DNA of 51,292 nucleotides, from assembly GCA_029262295.1 (NCBI GenBank), contig JAJCZR010000047.1, forward strand, positions 1 to 51,292, given 5' to 3'. How positions within the stretch are numbered: position 1 is the first letter of the stretch; each line of letters starts with the position of its first letter. Below, piece by piece: positions 25,104 to 41,242 of this stretch. The DNA is from Deltaproteobacteria bacterium (GTDB lineage Bacteria > Desulfobacterota_D > UBA1144 > Nemesobacterales > Nemesobacteraceae). The position numbers were made by a program, and so were the translations under genes. The notes beneath the pieces are model-generated. The model saw only the letters and a program-made list of their open reading frames with translations. It did no database searches and was not told the origin of the DNA.

Positions 25104-26117
25104 TTAGAGAAATTTGTCTTTTTTGAGCCAGTCTATGGTTTTGGAGAAGATTAGATTTGTATCAATATTTGAGAAGCCTAAGTCTTGCTGTGCCTTTTTA
25201 GAATTAACAAACCAGTACTTTGTTGCATACTTAATAACACTAGGATCAAATATTGGTTCCAAACCAGCTTTTTCAAGTACTACTGACAGATACTTTATCG
25301 GATGTTCAATTAAAGAATTGGAGATTTGCCTTATTTTTTTATTTGGATTGGTAAGCTTTACAACTTGTTCTGCAATCTGTTTAATCGTTAAATTATCAGA
25401 ACCTAAAATATACTTCTCACCAGTCTTTCCAGTGTTCAGAGCTTTAATTATTCCATCAGCCACATCTTTTACATAAACAACAGAAGTGCCTCCATTCCAG
25501 CAAATACGAAATTTGGCAAAATCAATCAGGGTTTTTGCAGTTTCTAAACCATATTCACCATATACTTCGGAAGGCAAACAAATAACTACAGGCAAGTTTT
25601 TTTCTTTATAATAATTAAGGGCAATCTGATCACCTTTATATTTGGACTCAGCGTACCAATAACCCTTACCCAACAAAGAAAACTCGTGTGATTCATCCAA
25701 ATAAGTATTTTTATTTTCGGAATAACCCAAAGAGGCTGTTGAACTTACATGAACCATTTTTTTTATATCAAACTTGAGTGCTGCTTCACATAAATTTTTC
25801 ACGCCTTCAACATTGACTTTGTCCAATAAAGAAACTTTCTTATATGTAACACATGCTGCCAAATTGATAATGCAATCACAACCTTCTAAAGAACTAACTA
25901 AACTTTCAAAATCAGTTAAGTCTCCATAATGAACTTCTAAACCGGGAATAATTTTTTTATAACGCTCAACAAGATTTTTATCAGAAGAAGGTCTTACAAG
26001 AATTCTTACTTTTTTAAATTGATTTTCCTTAGAAATTAGTTCAAGAAGGTGTCGACCAATAAAACCAGTTGCACCAGTAATAATAATTCGTTCGAACTTT
26101 TTAACATTTAAATTCAT
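25104..26117 (-). CDS. NAD(P)-dependent epimerase/dehydratase (extended SDR)
   Basis: 337 aa. N-terminal Rossmann motif IITGATGFIGRHLLELIS (GxxGxxG), then INLAACVTYKKVS, and the catalytic YAESK (YxxxK, in YWYAESKYKGDQ). A family of bacterial SDRs with this layout includes 3-beta-HSD-like, HpnA-like and ceramide-reductase-like enzymes. Its ATG overlaps the aroC stop by 4 nt (ATGA). The exact substrate cannot be assigned; together with the second epimerase (27717) and the oxoamine synthase it raises the possibility of a sphingolipid-like or acyl-ketone pathway. Confidence 0.8.
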   Translation of the reverse strand: MNLNVKKFERIIITGATGFIGRHLLELISKENQFKKVRILVRPSSDKNLVERYKKIIPGLEVHYGDLTDFESLVSSLEGCDCIINLAACVTYKKVSLLDKVNVEGVKNLCEAALKFDIKKMVHVSSTASLGYSENKNTYLDESHEFSLLGKGYWYAESKYKGDQIALNYYKEKNLPVVICLPSEVYGEYGLETAKTLIDFAKFRICWNGGTSVVYVKDVADGIIKALNTGKTGEKYILGSDNLTIKQIAEQVVKLTNPNKKIRQISNSLIEHPIKYLSVVLEKAGLEPIFDPSVIKYATKYWFVNSKKAQQDLGFSNIDTNLIFSKTIDWLKKDKFL

Positions 26118-27184
26118 ATTTTTGAAATTTTAGCAAGCATTAAATGATCCACCAAAACAAGATTGACCATTGCTTCTGCTATAGGAACTGCTCGCGGACA
26201 CAGACATGGATCATGCCTGCCTTTTACAACTAATTCTTTTGGATTTCCATCTTTATCAACAGTGTTCTGAGTTTTTGATATTGAAGAAGTTGGCTTTATT
26301 GCAATTCTGACAACTAAATCTTCGCCATTAGATATTCCACCAAGCATCCCTCCTGCATTATTGGTTTTAAATCCAAGTGATCCATCATCTTTTTTATACA
26401 TAAGATCATTTGCTTCAGAACCTTTCTTTTCTGCCACAGCAAAGCCCATACCTGCTTCAAATCCCCTTATACCTCCCAAGCTCATCAGTGCTCCTGCAAG
26501 ATCGGCATCAAGTTTATTAAACACAGGATCGCCTAACCCAGATGGCAAACCTTTTGTTACCACCTCTACGACACCGCCGATGGAGTCCCCTTCCCTTCTA
26601 ACCTGATCTATAAGATCAAACATGTCTTCCGCTTTGTCCTTATCAGGGCATCTTACAGCATTATTTTCAATCTCATCAAAATCAAATTTTTCTGCAATTA
26701 TATTTCCAATTTGTTTCACATATCCTGTTGTTATTATTCCTTCATTGCTCAATATTTTTTTTGCTACTGCAGCCGCTGCCACTCTTCCTACTGTTTCACG
26801 GTTAGATGACCTGCCACCGCCTCTATAATCTCTGAAACCATATTTTTCATCATAAGTGTAATCTGCATGACCAGGCCTATAAGTATCTTTTATATCTTCA
26901 TAAGATTTTGAAATTGCATCAGTGTTCTCAACTATCATTGAAATTGGTGTGCCTGTTGTTTTGCCATCAAATACACCAGAAAGGATCTTAACTTTGTCGG
27001 CTTCTTTTCTTTGAGTAGTAATCTTGCTTTGACCGGGACGTCTTCTATCGAGTTCTGGTTGTATATCTTTTTCAGATAGTGGAAGACCCGCTGGACATCC
27101 ATCTAAAACCACTCCAAGAGCAAGTCCATGAGACTCTCCCCAAGTGGTTATTCTAAAAACTTTTCCAAAACTATTTCCTGGCAT
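26114..27184 (-). CDS. aroC: Chorismate synthase
   Basis: Last shikimate-pathway enzyme; makes chorismate from EPSP with reduced FMN. Signatures: FRITTWGESHGLALGVVLDG, DRRRPGQSKITTQRKEAD, RDYRGGGRSSNRETVGRVAA, and the C-terminal PTSSISKTQ ... GRHDPCLCPRAVPIAEAM. 356 aa, normal. ATG 27184. The DUF559 hairpin unit (27288-27701) lies upstream, separating aroC from the second epimerase. Its stop overlaps the next gene's start. Confidence 0.98.
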   Translation of the reverse strand: MPGNSFGKVFRITTWGESHGLALGVVLDGCPAGLPLSEKDIQPELDRRRPGQSKITTQRKEADKVKILSGVFDGKTTGTPISMIVENTDAISKSYEDIKDTYRPGHADYTYDEKYGFRDYRGGGRSSNRETVGRVAAAAVAKKILSNEGIITTGYVKQIGNIIAEKFDFDEIENNAVRCPDKDKAEDMFDLIDQVRREGDSIGGVVEVVTKGLPSGLGDPVFNKLDADLAGALMSLGGIRGFEAGMGFAVAEKKGSEANDLMYKKDDGSLGFKTNNAGGMLGGISNGEDLVVRIAIKPTSSISKTQNTVDKDGNPKELVVKGRHDPCLCPRAVPIAEAMVNLVLVDHLMLAKISKI

Positions 27185-27287
27185 GGGAGAATTTTATATG
27201 ATTAGTTTCGGTAAGCAAATTGGAGTCATAAAACAAAAACATTTAAAAAAATATATTACAATTTAGAGACCTCTTACATTTTATTTT

Positions 27288-27701
27288 CCTTCTCCCTTGA
27301 GGGGAGAAGGATTTAAGGATGAGGGTGATTTAGATGAACATAAAAAAGGCAAAAGAACTAAGAAAAAATATGACAAATGCTGAAATAAAACTCTGGTACC
27401 ATCTTCGCAATAGAAATCTTAATGGTTTCAAATTCAGAAGACAGCAACCTATTGGAAAATACATAGTAGATTTCGTTAATCAGGAGAAAAAATTAATTAT
27501 TGAAGTAGATGGCAGTCAACATTTAAAGCATGAAGATTATGATAAAGAACGCACAAAACTATTAAAAAAGTATGGATATAAAGTAATTAGATTTTGGAAT
27601 AATGATGTCCTGACTGATATAGGTTCTATTAAAGAATCTATTTTGGATAATTTAGAGTAAACCCCCTCACCCTTAATCCCTCTCCCTCGGTGTGGAGAGG
27701 G
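27288..27701. mobile_element. Hairpin-ended unit carrying a DUF559 gene
   Basis: Left end: CCTTCTCCC-TTGAG-GGGAGAAGG hairpin (27288-27310), then ATTTAAGGATGAGGGTG. Right end: the inverted counterpart, CCCCCTCACCCTTAATCC followed by a CCCTCTCC-8nt-GGAGAGGG hairpin (27678-27701). The ends are thus inverted repeats, each with a terminal hairpin. The only gene between them is the DUF559 nuclease. The unit is inserted between two minus-strand genes and points the other way. Related gene-less units are at 39990-40081 and 41013-41183. Confidence 0.7.
27334..27660 (+). CDS. DUF559 (Vsr-like) endonuclease-domain protein
   Basis: 108 aa. The DUF559 domain spans the whole protein: N-terminal MTNAEIKLWYHLRNRNLNGF, FRRQQPIGKYIVDFV, and the PD-(D/E)XK-type core LIIEVDGSQHLKH, ending VIRFWNNDVLTDI. 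Asp in YIVDF and Glu/Asp in IIEVDGSQH are the likely metal ligands. The SD (GAGGG, 27321-27325, 8 nt before ATG) lies inside the conserved repeat end, and the stop codon abuts the right-hand repeat. Known DUF559 proteins are not well characterised; this one looks like cargo or driver of the hairpin-ended unit (inference). Confidence 0.88.
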   Translation: MNIKKAKELRKNMTNAEIKLWYHLRNRNLNGFKFRRQQPIGKYIVDFVNQEKKLIIEVDGSQHLKHEDYDKERTKLLKKYGYKVIRFWNNDVLTDIGSIKESILDNLE

Positions 27702-27716
27702 AAACTAAAAAAAACC

Positions 27717-28703
27717 TCACTCCAATTGCCCGTTTTCCTTAAACCACTCATAGGTTTTCTTTAAAGTTTCTTCAATCGGAGTTTGGTTGAACCCTAATTC
27801 ATTTATTGCCCTAGAAGAGTCTACATGCCAGTTGTATTTTGAAAGCCTAATTGAATCGAGGTCTAAAGAAGAATAGTTTGGGAAGGAAAAACTCAAAAGC
27901 CTTTCTAAAATTAATGCTGTTGCATAAGCAAAAGGATATGGAATTTTCATCTTTGGTGCAGATACACCTGTGATTTTTTCCAGCATATTAAAATAACTTT
28001 TTACTGTTACATTTTCATTGCCTAGAATATAACGTTTTCCAGGTTCCCCTTTTTCAGAAGCAAGTATATGTCCCTCAGCCACATTTTCCACATCAACTAT
28101 ATTAAAAGTGCCATTCATATATCCGGGGAATTTTTTCTTTGCAAACCACAGTACTGACCCTGCACTTGAAAGATAAATATCACCCTCTCCCAATACTACA
28201 GATGGATTTAATACAACAACTGGAAGCCCTTTCTCAAAATAGTTCATTGCCTCTTTCTCAGCAAGATATTTAACATTCATATAACCAATACCTTCATTGT
28301 AAAGGTCATAAGTTGTATCTTCAGTAATGACAGAGCCGTCTCTTTCAATACCTATCGCAGCCACACTGCTTGTAAACATTACTTTTGATACACCACAATC
28401 CATAGCAGCAGAAAGAACATTACTGGCACCTTTCACATTAATATCTTCCATCTTTTTGTAATCAGATTTTTTGAACGAAACAAAACCGGCAGTATGAAAA
28501 AGTTTATCACATCCTTTAAAAGCAGCTTTTAGCGAATTAATATCAAGAACATCTCCGTAGATCTTTTCAACATCAAGTCCATCTATGTTTTTGGTATTAC
28601 TCGTTTCCCTTACAAGAACTTTCACGTTCTCGCCTTTCTCTAATAGTTTTTTTGTAATATGGGAACCGATGAATCCCGTTGCTCCTGTTACAATTGTTGG
28701 CAT
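27717..28703 (-). CDS. NAD-dependent epimerase/dehydratase, HpnA/dihydroflavonol-reductase-like
   Basis: 328 aa. Starts TIVTGATGFIGSHITKKLLE (GxxGxxG Rossmann). Contains DKLFHTAGFVSFKKSDY, the SSVAAIG serine region and YMNVK (YxxxK) before LAEKEAM. Patterns resemble HpnA-type 'hopanoid-associated' SDRs and dihydroflavonol reductases. It starts 26 bp after the RlmD-like gene and ends just before the DUF559 unit. About 39% of recognisable blocks are shared in order with the epimerase at 25104 by eye (not a computed identity), so the two may be related paralogues. Substrate unknown. Confidence 0.82.
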   Translation of the reverse strand: MPTIVTGATGFIGSHITKKLLEKGENVKVLVRETSNTKNIDGLDVEKIYGDVLDINSLKAAFKGCDKLFHTAGFVSFKKSDYKKMEDINVKGASNVLSAAMDCGVSKVMFTSSVAAIGIERDGSVITEDTTYDLYNEGIGYMNVKYLAEKEAMNYFEKGLPVVVLNPSVVLGEGDIYLSSAGSVLWFAKKKFPGYMNGTFNIVDVENVAEGHILASEKGEPGKRYILGNENVTVKSYFNMLEKITGVSAPKMKIPYPFAYATALILERLLSFSFPNYSSLDLDSIRLSKYNWHVDSSRAINELGFNQTPIEETLKKTYEWFKENGQLE

Positions 28704-32934: not shown

Positions 32935-33080
32935 TGTAATGCAGCACTTGATGCGGCACCCAGGATATTGAAATATATTTTAAACTCATTACTAAATCAC
33001 TTCACTGCTATAATACTAAATGTTAGCAATTATTTTTTCTTTCCCACCATACTGGATTCCTGGTCAAGCCAGGAATGACA
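32935..33080. repeat. TGTCAT-family interspersed repeat, long copy 1 (146 bp)
   Basis: Starts TGTAATGCAGCACTTGATGC, ends CTGGATTCCTGGTCAAGCC AGGAATGACA (split here by a space). It aligns by eye over its full length with the copy at 39773-39919. Each end can fold as a hairpin and the two ends are inverted repeats. It fills most of the gene-free gap 32901-33147. Confidence 0.85.
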
Positions 33081-33147
33081 ATACCTAAGAACCTAAACCT
33101 TTTATTTTACATTAGAATGTCAAAACATTTTTCAATTAATCTAATCT

Positions 33148-38674: not shown

Positions 38675-39778
38675 CTAATTTAAGAAGGATTTGTCGTAAT
38701 CTACTTCACCCGTTTCAGAGTTATAAATGTAGTCTTCTCCTAAGGGGTGTTTGGGATAATCACGGAGAGTTGATGTCTGGCTAATATATTCTTCAAGTTC
38801 CGACATATTAGATGGGTATCTTCCATACTCATTTTTAAACCTGTTGGATCTTGAATTCAGGAAACCTATATTCTCTCTTAAAAACCTTTTTGCTAAAGCT
38901 ATGCTTTTGACAGCTTTTATATCAGGTGCAATAATAAAATTTTCATCGTCATGATCTTTTGGAACTTTTTTCAGATAGCCTTTCTTTACAAGTTCTTGAG
39001 GATTTAAAGGCAATCTTCCAAAATCAGAATCAAACTTTTGAACTAAATTTGTAAGTCTGTCTTCAAAATCCATAGTTTGGAGTTCCTTCAAATTTTGAAG
39101 AGCGAAGTTTTTTCTTCCTTCATTAGTAGTATTCTCATAAATGTCTTTCCAAATTTTTTTTGAAAGCTCTCTATCACCACCCTTTAATCTCGCCGTTGCG
39201 GCCATACCTTTAAATGATGCTTTTCTAAAATCAGATGAAACTCTTTTAGATGCTTCTTCAAAAAGAGTAGAAGCTTTTTTATAATTCTGTGAATATAAAT
39301 ATAATAAAAATGCCTCTTCGAGAGGAAGCCTGAAATTATTAGGGTTATTTTTTCTACCTTTATCTAAAAGGATCGCACCTTTCTCAACATCGCCAAGTCC
39401 AAAAGGTTCCGGTTCGGCTAAGAAAGTGCCCCCAAATCTATAGGCATTTACAAACTTCGGATCAAGATCAGTAATAATATCAAAATAGTTAAGAAGCAGT
39501 TTAGGATCTTTATCTGAGATGCGACCTTCGCTATCACCAAAATATTGAAGAACCCTAAACCAATAAATATCGGAAAGAAGTTCATCAAAACCTAAAGAAA
39601 CTTTTTTCAGTGTTGAGGAACTCAAGTATAAAGTTTCTTCAATAGATCGAAACTTGCTTCTTTGGTTGTCTATTTTTTTTTGAAAAGGTATGGATGCAGT
39701 TATTAGCAATGCTATGATTGCTAAGATTAATATTGGTTTATTTAGAATTTTGTTTAACATTTTTTTGTTTTTTGTCAT
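38675..39778 (-). CDS. Membrane-anchored TPR protein, possible PilG-like pilus accessory
   Basis: 367 aa. One N-terminal TM helix (about 13-28, LILAIIALLITASIPF), a periplasmic TPR-like helical region (about 75-245; AYRFGGTFLAEP, ASTLFEEASKRVSSDFRKAS, NLKELQTMDFEDRL). Two tandem C-terminal motifs follow (FGRLPLNPQELVKKGYLKKV and YGRYPSNMSELEEYISQT), each resembling the C-terminal region of GspG-like pseudopilins. The start codon ATG (39776-39778) lies inside the TGTCAT end of a repeat copy, with no SD; a second ATG at 39760 is possible. It lies downstream of an ABC permease in a pilin locus, like PilG of Myxococcus pilGHI, but sequence homology to PilG is not shown. Confidence 0.6.
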   Translation of the reverse strand: MTKNKKMLNKILNKPILILAIIALLITASIPFQKKIDNQRSKFRSIEETLYLSSSTLKKVSLGFDELLSDIYWFRVLQYFGDSEGRISDKDPKLLLNYFDIITDLDPKFVNAYRFGGTFLAEPEPFGLGDVEKGAILLDKGRKNNPNNFRLPLEEAFLLYLYSQNYKKASTLFEEASKRVSSDFRKASFKGMAATARLKGGDRELSKKIWKDIYENTTNEGRKNFALQNLKELQTMDFEDRLTNLVQKFDSDFGRLPLNPQELVKKGYLKKVPKDHDDENFIIAPDIKAVKSIALAKRFLRENIGFLNSRSNRFKNEYGRYPSNMSELEEYISQTSTLRDYPKHPLGEDYIYNSETGEVDYDKSFLN

Positions 39779-39919
39779 GCCGCACTAGATGCGGCATCCA
39801 AGATTTTGAGATGACTTTTAAACACATCCATAAATTCACCTTACTGCAACAATACTAATAGCAAATTATTAATTAATCTTTTTCATCACTCTGGATTCCT
39901 GGTCAAGCCAGGAATGACA
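39773..39919. repeat. TGTCAT-family interspersed repeat, long copy 2 (147 bp)
   Basis: Starts TGTCATGCCGCACTAGATGC and ends CTGGATTCCTGGTCAAGCC AGGAATGACA. It aligns by eye with copy 1 (32935-33080). Its first bases provide the start codon of the TPR gene (39778). With the next unit it fills 39779-40112, a gap without genes. Confidence 0.85.
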
Positions 39920-39989
39920 ATACTTAGACCCTTCGCGTAGCCTGTACTGAGCAACGTCGAATGTACTCGAGGATGACAAAGAAATAATC

Positions 39990-40081
39990 CCTTCTCCCTT
40001 GATGGGAGAAGGTTAGGATGAGGGTGGTGAATTGAATATCTACCCCCCCCTCACCTTAGTCCTCTCCCACAAGGGGAGAGG
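39990..40081. repeat. Gene-less hairpin-ended unit D (DUF559-family ends)
   Basis: CCTTCTCCC-TTGAT-GGGAGAAGG (39990-40012), GTTAGGATGAGGGTGGTGAAT, CTACCCCCCCCTCACCTTAGT, then CCTCTCCC-ACAAG-GGGAGAGG (40061-40081). Same end structure as the DUF559 unit, with the gene replaced by about 15 nt. Confidence 0.8.
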
Positions 40082-40112
40082 AGATTTATGTGGTAAGAGA
40101 ATTTTATATTCC

Positions 40113-40924: not shown

Positions 40925-41002
40925 TGTCATGCTGAACTTGTTTCAGCATCTATAATATTTCTTCTGAAAAGTGTTAGATCCTGAAATAAATTCAGGATGA
41001 CC
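40925..41002. repeat. TGTCAT-family repeat, short copy (78 bp)
   Basis: TGTCATGCTGAACTTGTTTC AGCATCTA ... TTAGATCCTGAAATAAATTC AGGATGACC. It lies 8 bp upstream of the permease start and 10 bp from unit E. Confidence 0.75.
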
Positions 41003-41012
41003 AAAAACACTC

Positions 41013-41183
41013 CCTTCTCCCTTGATGGGAGAAGGTTAGGATGAGGGTGAATTGTATGTCTACCTACCCCTCACTTTTATCCTTAACTATGGTAAATATT
41101 TTTAATTTCAACAAAACTTTATTCAAATTTATATTTCAAAAATGTAACAAACTCCAAACATCCAAATCCCACCAGGAGAGAGG
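41013..41183. repeat. Gene-less hairpin-ended unit E, right end interrupted
   Basis: Left: CCTTCTCCC-TTGAT-GGGAGAAGG (41013-41035) followed by TTAGGATGAGGGTGAATTG. Right: CTACCCCTCACTTTTATCC, then about 90 bp of unrelated AT-rich sequence, then CCCACCAGGAGAGAGG (41168-41183). The interruption sits within the right hairpin. An ATG 8 nt after GAGGG sits at the same place as the DUF559 start. Confidence 0.7.
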
Positions 41184-41209: not shown

Positions 41210-41242
41210 TGTCATCCTCGAATGCTTAAATCGGGGATCCAG
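41210..41242. repeat. TGTCAT-family repeat, single hairpin end
   Basis: TGTCATCCTCGAATGCTTAA ATCGGGGATCCAG. A lone end just downstream of the ABC ATPase stop. Confidence 0.55.

Follow-up and report, generated by a model that had tools for sequence, protein, structure and literature searches.

We found that a small gene of the DUF559 family (PF04480), predicted to encode a nuclease, is enclosed by two inverted copies of an intrastrand triplex motif (TM) in a genome of the Nemesobacteraceae, and that small DUF559 genes from many phyla lie close to such motifs far more often than control places do. The explanation that we favor, with a probability of roughly 60%, is a minimal selfish unit resembling a REPtron, which consists of a DUF559 gene and two inward-facing TM ends and in which the nuclease would spread TM-ended units. 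TM repeats occur in hundreds of genomes, including that of E. coli K-12, and their spread has so far been without explanation. DUF559 is a very common family whose function is still to be assigned. A link between the two, if true, would account at once for the spread of the repeats and the function of the family.

The window, meaning the whole stretch of DNA that was analyzed, comprises 51,292 nt (positions 1 to 51,292, forward strand) of contig JAJCZR010000047.1 from assembly GCA_029262295.1 of a Deltaproteobacteria bacterium (Nemesobacteraceae). It contains the following features:
27287..27325, plus strand: left TM end, with the hairpin at 27287-27311, the linker at 27312-27315 and the mirror tail AGGATGAGGG at 27316-27325, towards the gene
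27334..27660, plus strand: DUF559 gene with an ATG start, encoding a predicted EDxHD/Vsr-like nuclease of 108 aa (PF04480, E=6e-44; model pLDDT 92.7; structural matches 3hrl, 3r3p and 1vsr)
27664..27702, minus strand: right TM end, with the hairpin at 27677-27702, a linker and the mirror tail GGGTGAGGG (minus strand, 27672-27664), towards the gene
39989..40084, no strand assigned: gene-free two-ended unit, resembling a non-autonomous element, with a left TM at 39990-40023 (plus), a short spacer and a right TM at 40049-40082 (minus)
41012..41078, plus strand: an additional left TM end, whose right counterpart has decayed (TACCCCTCACTTTTATCC)

The left hairpin reads TCCTTCTCCC-TTGAG-GGGAGAAGGA and is followed by TTTA and the tail. 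The right hairpin, read on the minus strand from 27702 to 27677, is TCCCTCTCC...GGAGAGGGA, followed by TTAA and its own tail. The inner tails end 8 nt 5' of the ATG and 3 nt 3' of the stop codon, respectively. The first-pass annotation had described the gene as enclosed, alone, by two inverted hairpin ends, and this was borne out: when the left end was locally aligned to the right end in reverse complement, the score was 21, a value reached by none of 2923 random places with the same spacing in the window (mean 9.0, maximum 16.5). Single-strand folding z-scores were -4.1 for the left end and -3.3 and -2.6 for the two strands of the right end, and both ends were detected as TMs with 0 mismatches by a mechanical TM detector. 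The encoded protein matched PF04480 with 148.8 bits, against a curated cut-off of 20.6. The neighbors of the unit, which from their translations, read by eye, we take to be an aroC-like gene (26114-27184) and a sugar-nucleotide epimerase-like gene (27717-28703), are both on the opposite strand. An Rfam search of the unit matched no family. A phage origin was rejected, there being few phage matches, and an identity as a defense system was rejected as PADLOC gave no match. The annotation had overlooked the gene-free unit at 39989-40084, the left end at 41012 and the fact that the inner tails mirror a hairpin arm.

A TM consists of a hairpin, a linker, usually of 3 nt, and a tail that repeats the purine (3') arm of the hairpin in mirror order. 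Across the DUF559 loci the tail was the mirrored 3' arm, as a rule with one A replaced by T, as in the arm and tail pairs GGAGAGGG / GGGTGAGG, GGGGAAGG / GGATGGGG and AAGGGGGG / GGGGGGAT. Arm and tail covaried across these loci as mirror images (z=17 over shuffled tails). A tail formed as a direct repeat was considered instead and gave a weaker signal (z=7 versus 17). In the purine (reverse-Hoogsteen) triplex motif, either A or T may face an A-T pair, and the mirror rule with its A-to-T exchange therefore fits what an intrastrand triplex would impose. Judged by their sequence, the ends of the unit belong to the intrastrand triplex motif class.

The E. coli type of the motif, TM_ECO or the PIT element, was reportedly described by Hoyne et al. 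It has the same hairpin, short linker and mirror purine tail as the ends studied here, and likewise occurs as inverted pairs, whose two types differ slightly. However, the arms found here vary far beyond its consensus while keeping the mirror rule. The left end of the unit in the window (CCTTCTCCC/GGGAGAAGG, tail GGATGAGGG) is such a covariant variant and fails the exact TM_ECO consensus CCCTCNCCCN3-6GGGNGAGGGN3GGGNGAGGG, which defines the E. coli subtype only and is matched by the E. coli copies; the ends were therefore assigned to TM and not to TM_ECO. The TM class was described by Holder et al. (2015) in more than 260 genomes, with the E. coli type in 262 and 23 copies in E. coli K-12 (PMC4666352). 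The same study showed by CD and NMR that the E. coli motif forms a stable triplex in vitro, and tied TMs to local instability in E. coli. Its authors noted neither a mobility gene nor any functional class in the vicinity of TMs, whereas the link to DUF559, which includes the E. coli gene ycjD, is new here.

We assembled 156 distinct small DUF559 genes from the phylum of the window, from a set of 80 loci on genome contigs and from Gammaproteobacteria, together with further copies in the same genomes. The contig set was picked by similarity to the window protein, while for the other two profile score was the main criterion; identical genes were removed and related copies were kept at full weight. 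With the mechanical detector and a reach of 250 bp, a TM was found near 98 of the 156 genes (63%), compared with 28 of 731 control places from the same loci (3.8%), and TMs with inward tails stood on both sides of 36 genes and of none of the control places. The first reading of the sequence had asked whether DUF559 genes lie between such ends more often than chance, and whether they are usually flanked by them in other genomes; the counts answer both in the affirmative. The association was seen in the Gammaproteobacteria (40 of 51 genes versus 11 of 148 control places), in the window's own phylum (15/18 versus 1/50) and in the remaining loci (43/87 versus 14/516). For about 37% of the genes, no TM was detected within 250 bp. 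The orientation was not uniform, since 35 of the 156 genes had an outward-facing TM upstream. At one locus (L253, G321:C2:356728-360042), the DUF559 gene lies between two outward-facing TMs at about 358149 and 358560, the reverse of the usual arrangement. A scan of 0.8 Mb of genome G321 for all TM-bracketed genes yielded 14 TMs, too few for a useful count, and a single DUF559 gene, which has an outward-facing TM on either side.

The association was also seen at the level of whole genomes. Among 274 gammaproteobacterial species genomes, treated without phylogenetic correction, at least five TM-pattern hits were present in 38 of the 60 with a strong DUF559 match and in 27 of the 214 without (OR 12, p=2e-14); some TM-rich genomes have no strong match. 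Genomes with only weak PF04480 matches, mostly to long proteins, did not have the association (OR 0.94). Reading the pattern backwards proved unfit as a control because, with two mismatches allowed, the reversed pattern is matched by an exact motif, and a composition-matched permuted pattern was used in its place. In the same test the OR for this pattern was 2.0 (p=0.08); among its hits were several TM variants that bracket the DUF559 genes of one genome (G106). The OR for the TM pattern was still 7-12 once the backwards-pattern hits were subtracted. The repeats also track the protein: units whose proteins are more identical have more similar arms (Mantel r=0.29), and none of 2000 permutations gave as high a value.

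We modeled the 108-aa protein with AlphaFold (pLDDT 92.7), and the predicted fold is that of a nuclease. Structural matches of the model were NGO0050, a DUF559 protein from Neisseria gonorrhoeae (3HRL; rmsd 1.0, with 48% identity when structurally aligned), I-Bth0305I, an EDxHD homing endonuclease of which the catalytic domain was matched (3r3p; TM-score 0.69 over the query; PMC3943268), and Vsr (1vsr; TM-score 0.59 over the query). E17, D46, H63 and D70 were invariant in 42 sequences, in the order that gives the EDxHD family its name, and one paper places a DUF559 gene in that family (PMC9403480). It is plausible from the model that the protein shares its catalytic set with I-Bth0305I and Vsr. 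VsrA, a DUF559 protein of Caulobacter, reportedly causes the SOS response of cells that lack a cytosine methylase and has been proposed to work in a Vsr-like pathway (PMC12907096); by this effect on the SOS response, the DUF559 family is probably active on DNA. Several DUF559 proteins (L120, L128 and L143) end in repeat-encoded peptides, for example PHPNPLPEGEG and PSPQPSPRGERE, apparently because the reading frame includes the 3' TM.

The window's own genome has a single DUF559 copy. It also has gene-free two-ended units, at 39989-40084 in the window and at C23, C24:22550 and C30:6335 elsewhere, plus single ends. Gene-bearing and gene-free units have the same arm asymmetry, with a left arm of the CCTTCTCCC type and a right arm of the CCTCTCCC type. 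A locus of the candidate division FCPU426 (L091) carries one DUF559 unit and three gene-free pairs within 6 kb, and these pairs, like those of E. coli, combine two types of linker.

Copies of the unit were found in different flanks. Two loci from different genomes (L107 and L124) shared 690 bp at 97.8% identity, covering the gene and the TMs, with unrelated flanking sequence. Related units in different flanks were also found within one genome (L048 and L065, 94%) and on one contig (L140 and L142, 89%), and in both pairs the 3' border of the similarity was the outer edge of the hairpin. Several genomes hold 3-9 DUF559 copies, including decayed copies and fragments. The annotation had called for empty sites and target duplications. 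The former were found in a genus search with joined flanks, in which three congeners kept both flanks of L142 with a 48-bp spacer lacking both gene and TM, the right border of the insertion being obscured by other repeats over about 200 bp. The latter were not: no clear target-site duplication was seen at E. coli hrpB-mrcB or at the empty site of G069, where the borders are blurred, and no exact insertion junction could be defined among the sites compared. With the TM association, the units in unrelated flanks and the empty L142 site, the suggestion of a minimal element of hairpins plus nuclease gained support. In an evolution experiment with Legionella, three repeated segments with a transposase and a DUF559 gene were reportedly hotspots of mutation and recombination (PMC12308824). 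Units from Anaerolineales/Chloroflexi (L081, L088, L095, L103 and L080) were 84-91% identical over about 540-720 bp and lay repeatedly beside sequences that read like C-terminal fragments of hsdS, and this sequence context suggests that the units preferentially target places close to type I restriction loci.

The DUF559 gene of E. coli is ycjD (1351407-1351760). The TM 168 bp downstream of it is no. 9 in Table 1 of Holder et al., and in strain EC10 a second TM, with its tail inward, overlaps the ycjD stop codon. On the 5' side of ycjD there was no TM, only a hairpin after sapF that is the shared sapF terminator; the same kind of hairpin also occurs in strains without ycjD. Gene-free TM pairs are scattered in the genome. 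In the four K-12 pairs that we inspected, two of which were also compared between strains by alignment, the repeats are longer, at about 130-150 bp, and their outer arms resemble one another (for example GCACCGTTTTCT and GACTGACCGAG); the end of ycjD is followed by an outer arm of similar sequence (GCCGACCGAG). JJ2434 and SK1144 lack the pair at hrpB-mrcB, and an O111 strain has it with an internal deletion. At this locus in E. coli O111 (L278) and at alx-sstT in AVS0528 (L280), TM pairs apparently collapse to a single hairpin, seemingly by deletion between repeated stretches. Among 59 genomes, the median number of TM places was 17 in those with ycjD and 11 in those without (p=5e-8), a difference that follows phylogroup structure; O157, in which ycjD is absent, has about 12. 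A clean empty site of ycjD was not found in E. coli. In genomes without ycjD, the 7-kb efflux operon eefRABCD lies between fabI and sapF (PMC12817139), and the presence or absence of ycjD is therefore a swap and no evidence for simple insertion.

REP-associated transposases had been named as a precedent, and as architecture the comparison is apt. As in REPtrons and REPINs, a small gene is flanked by inverted palindromes, gene-free inverted pairs are scattered in the genome, and the repeat sequence follows the lineage of the gene. However, the enzyme here is predicted to be a nuclease of the EDxHD/Vsr fold, whereas that of a REPtron is an HUH tyrosine transposase (RAYT/TnpA-REP), and a mirror (triplex) tail takes the place of the GTAG tetranucleotide at the palindrome foot, a defining REPtron feature (PMC3733652). 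GTAG was absent from the foot of either window hairpin, and the Pfam search returned DUF559 and MTES_1575 REase only, with no HUH tyrosine transposase; the unit was therefore not filed under REPtrons. MITEs and insertion sequences similarly include short non-autonomous units with inverted ends beside a gene-bearing copy, but the window unit contains no DDE, serine or HUH transposase and no target-site duplication was seen. The predicted nuclease fold is shared with I-Bth0305I and Vsr, but the DUF559 protein is small (108 aa) and free-standing, lies outside introns and has no added DNA-binding region. The family is that of 3HRL, an entry titled only 'putative endonuclease-like protein', with no function given there. 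The unit is a putative new variant of the selfish elements made of palindromes and an enzyme.

Other explanations were weighed against a nuclease that spreads its own TM-ended unit. That the hairpins are transcription terminators or mRNA stabilizers which look alike by chance is very improbable. Strong G+C hairpins do flank both sides of the gene, but neither is followed by a T-run, and a terminator scan of 27150-27800 found none, on which ground ordinary terminators, the refutation first proposed for the element, were rejected as the identity of the ends. The conserved tail, moreover, mirrors the arm and does not base-pair with it, and according to an earlier study, as cited in PMC4666352, the E. 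coli motif acts neither as a terminator nor as a promoter. It is also doubtful, though less so, that TMs are fragile, recombinogenic sites at which DUF559, as a defense or mismatch-repair gene, landed or survived. TM-linked instability in E. coli (PMC4666352), the Vsr-like pathway proposed for VsrA (PMC12907096) and the Anaerolineales copies beside hsdS-like fragments agree with this, but passive capture of this kind is at odds with the absence of inward TM brackets from all 731 control places, with repeat arms that follow protein similarity and with the lack of a PADLOC match.

Somewhat less unlikely is homing, in which TM pairs spread by other means and a free-standing DUF559 nuclease cuts the spacer of a gene-free pair and is copied in, with the TMs as homology arms. 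This fits nearly as much of the data as a self-spreading unit: the DUF559 gene is located exactly at the spacer position of the gene-free pairs, the nearest solved relative with known activity is a homing endonuclease (PMC3943268), and shared TM arms in different flanks would be expected here too. However, the congeners at the L142 site lack the TM pair as well as the gene, which weighs against homing, and the rarity of TMs in genomes where DUF559 is absent would require a second mover. We therefore disfavor homing.

Under our preferred explanation, a self-spreading unit of DUF559 gene and TM ends, the purine strand of a TM that becomes single-stranded, for example on the lagging-strand template, would fold back into a hairpin, to which the mirror tail would add the third strand. 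The EDxHD/Vsr-type nuclease from the unit would recognize the folded TM and nick near the outer hairpin foot, and host repair or replication would copy or re-join the unit at another place; recognition, nicking and copying are steps that we infer. Gene-free TM pairs would then be non-autonomous, REPIN-like derivatives of the DUF559 unit. We propose tentatively, at slightly less than an even chance, that DUF559 proteins are dedicated mobility enzymes of triplex repeats, which recognize the three-stranded fold at both ends and form a separate class of transposase-free mobile DNA. Repeat, protein family and REPtron architecture had each been described before, but their combination, and with it a candidate mover of triplex repeats, appears new. 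A literature search for DUF559 together with TM repeats, with most subscription journals outside its scope, found no paper linking them. The link predicts, in a form open to testing, the substrate of a 108-aa enzyme from a family with a crystal structure (3HRL), and ycjD offers a direct route to such a test in E. coli. If the link is true, DNA triplexes would have a naturally occurring protein that reads them.

The CGTC-tagged REP superfamily is without a dedicated transposase (PMC3733652). A second hairpin family in the window, of the form GTCAT-hairpin-ATCCAG (for example CTGGATTCCTGGTCAAGCCAGGAATGACA), resembles this superfamily and occurs at about 33063-33085, 39776-39806, 39893-39921, 40927-40950 and 41211-41240.
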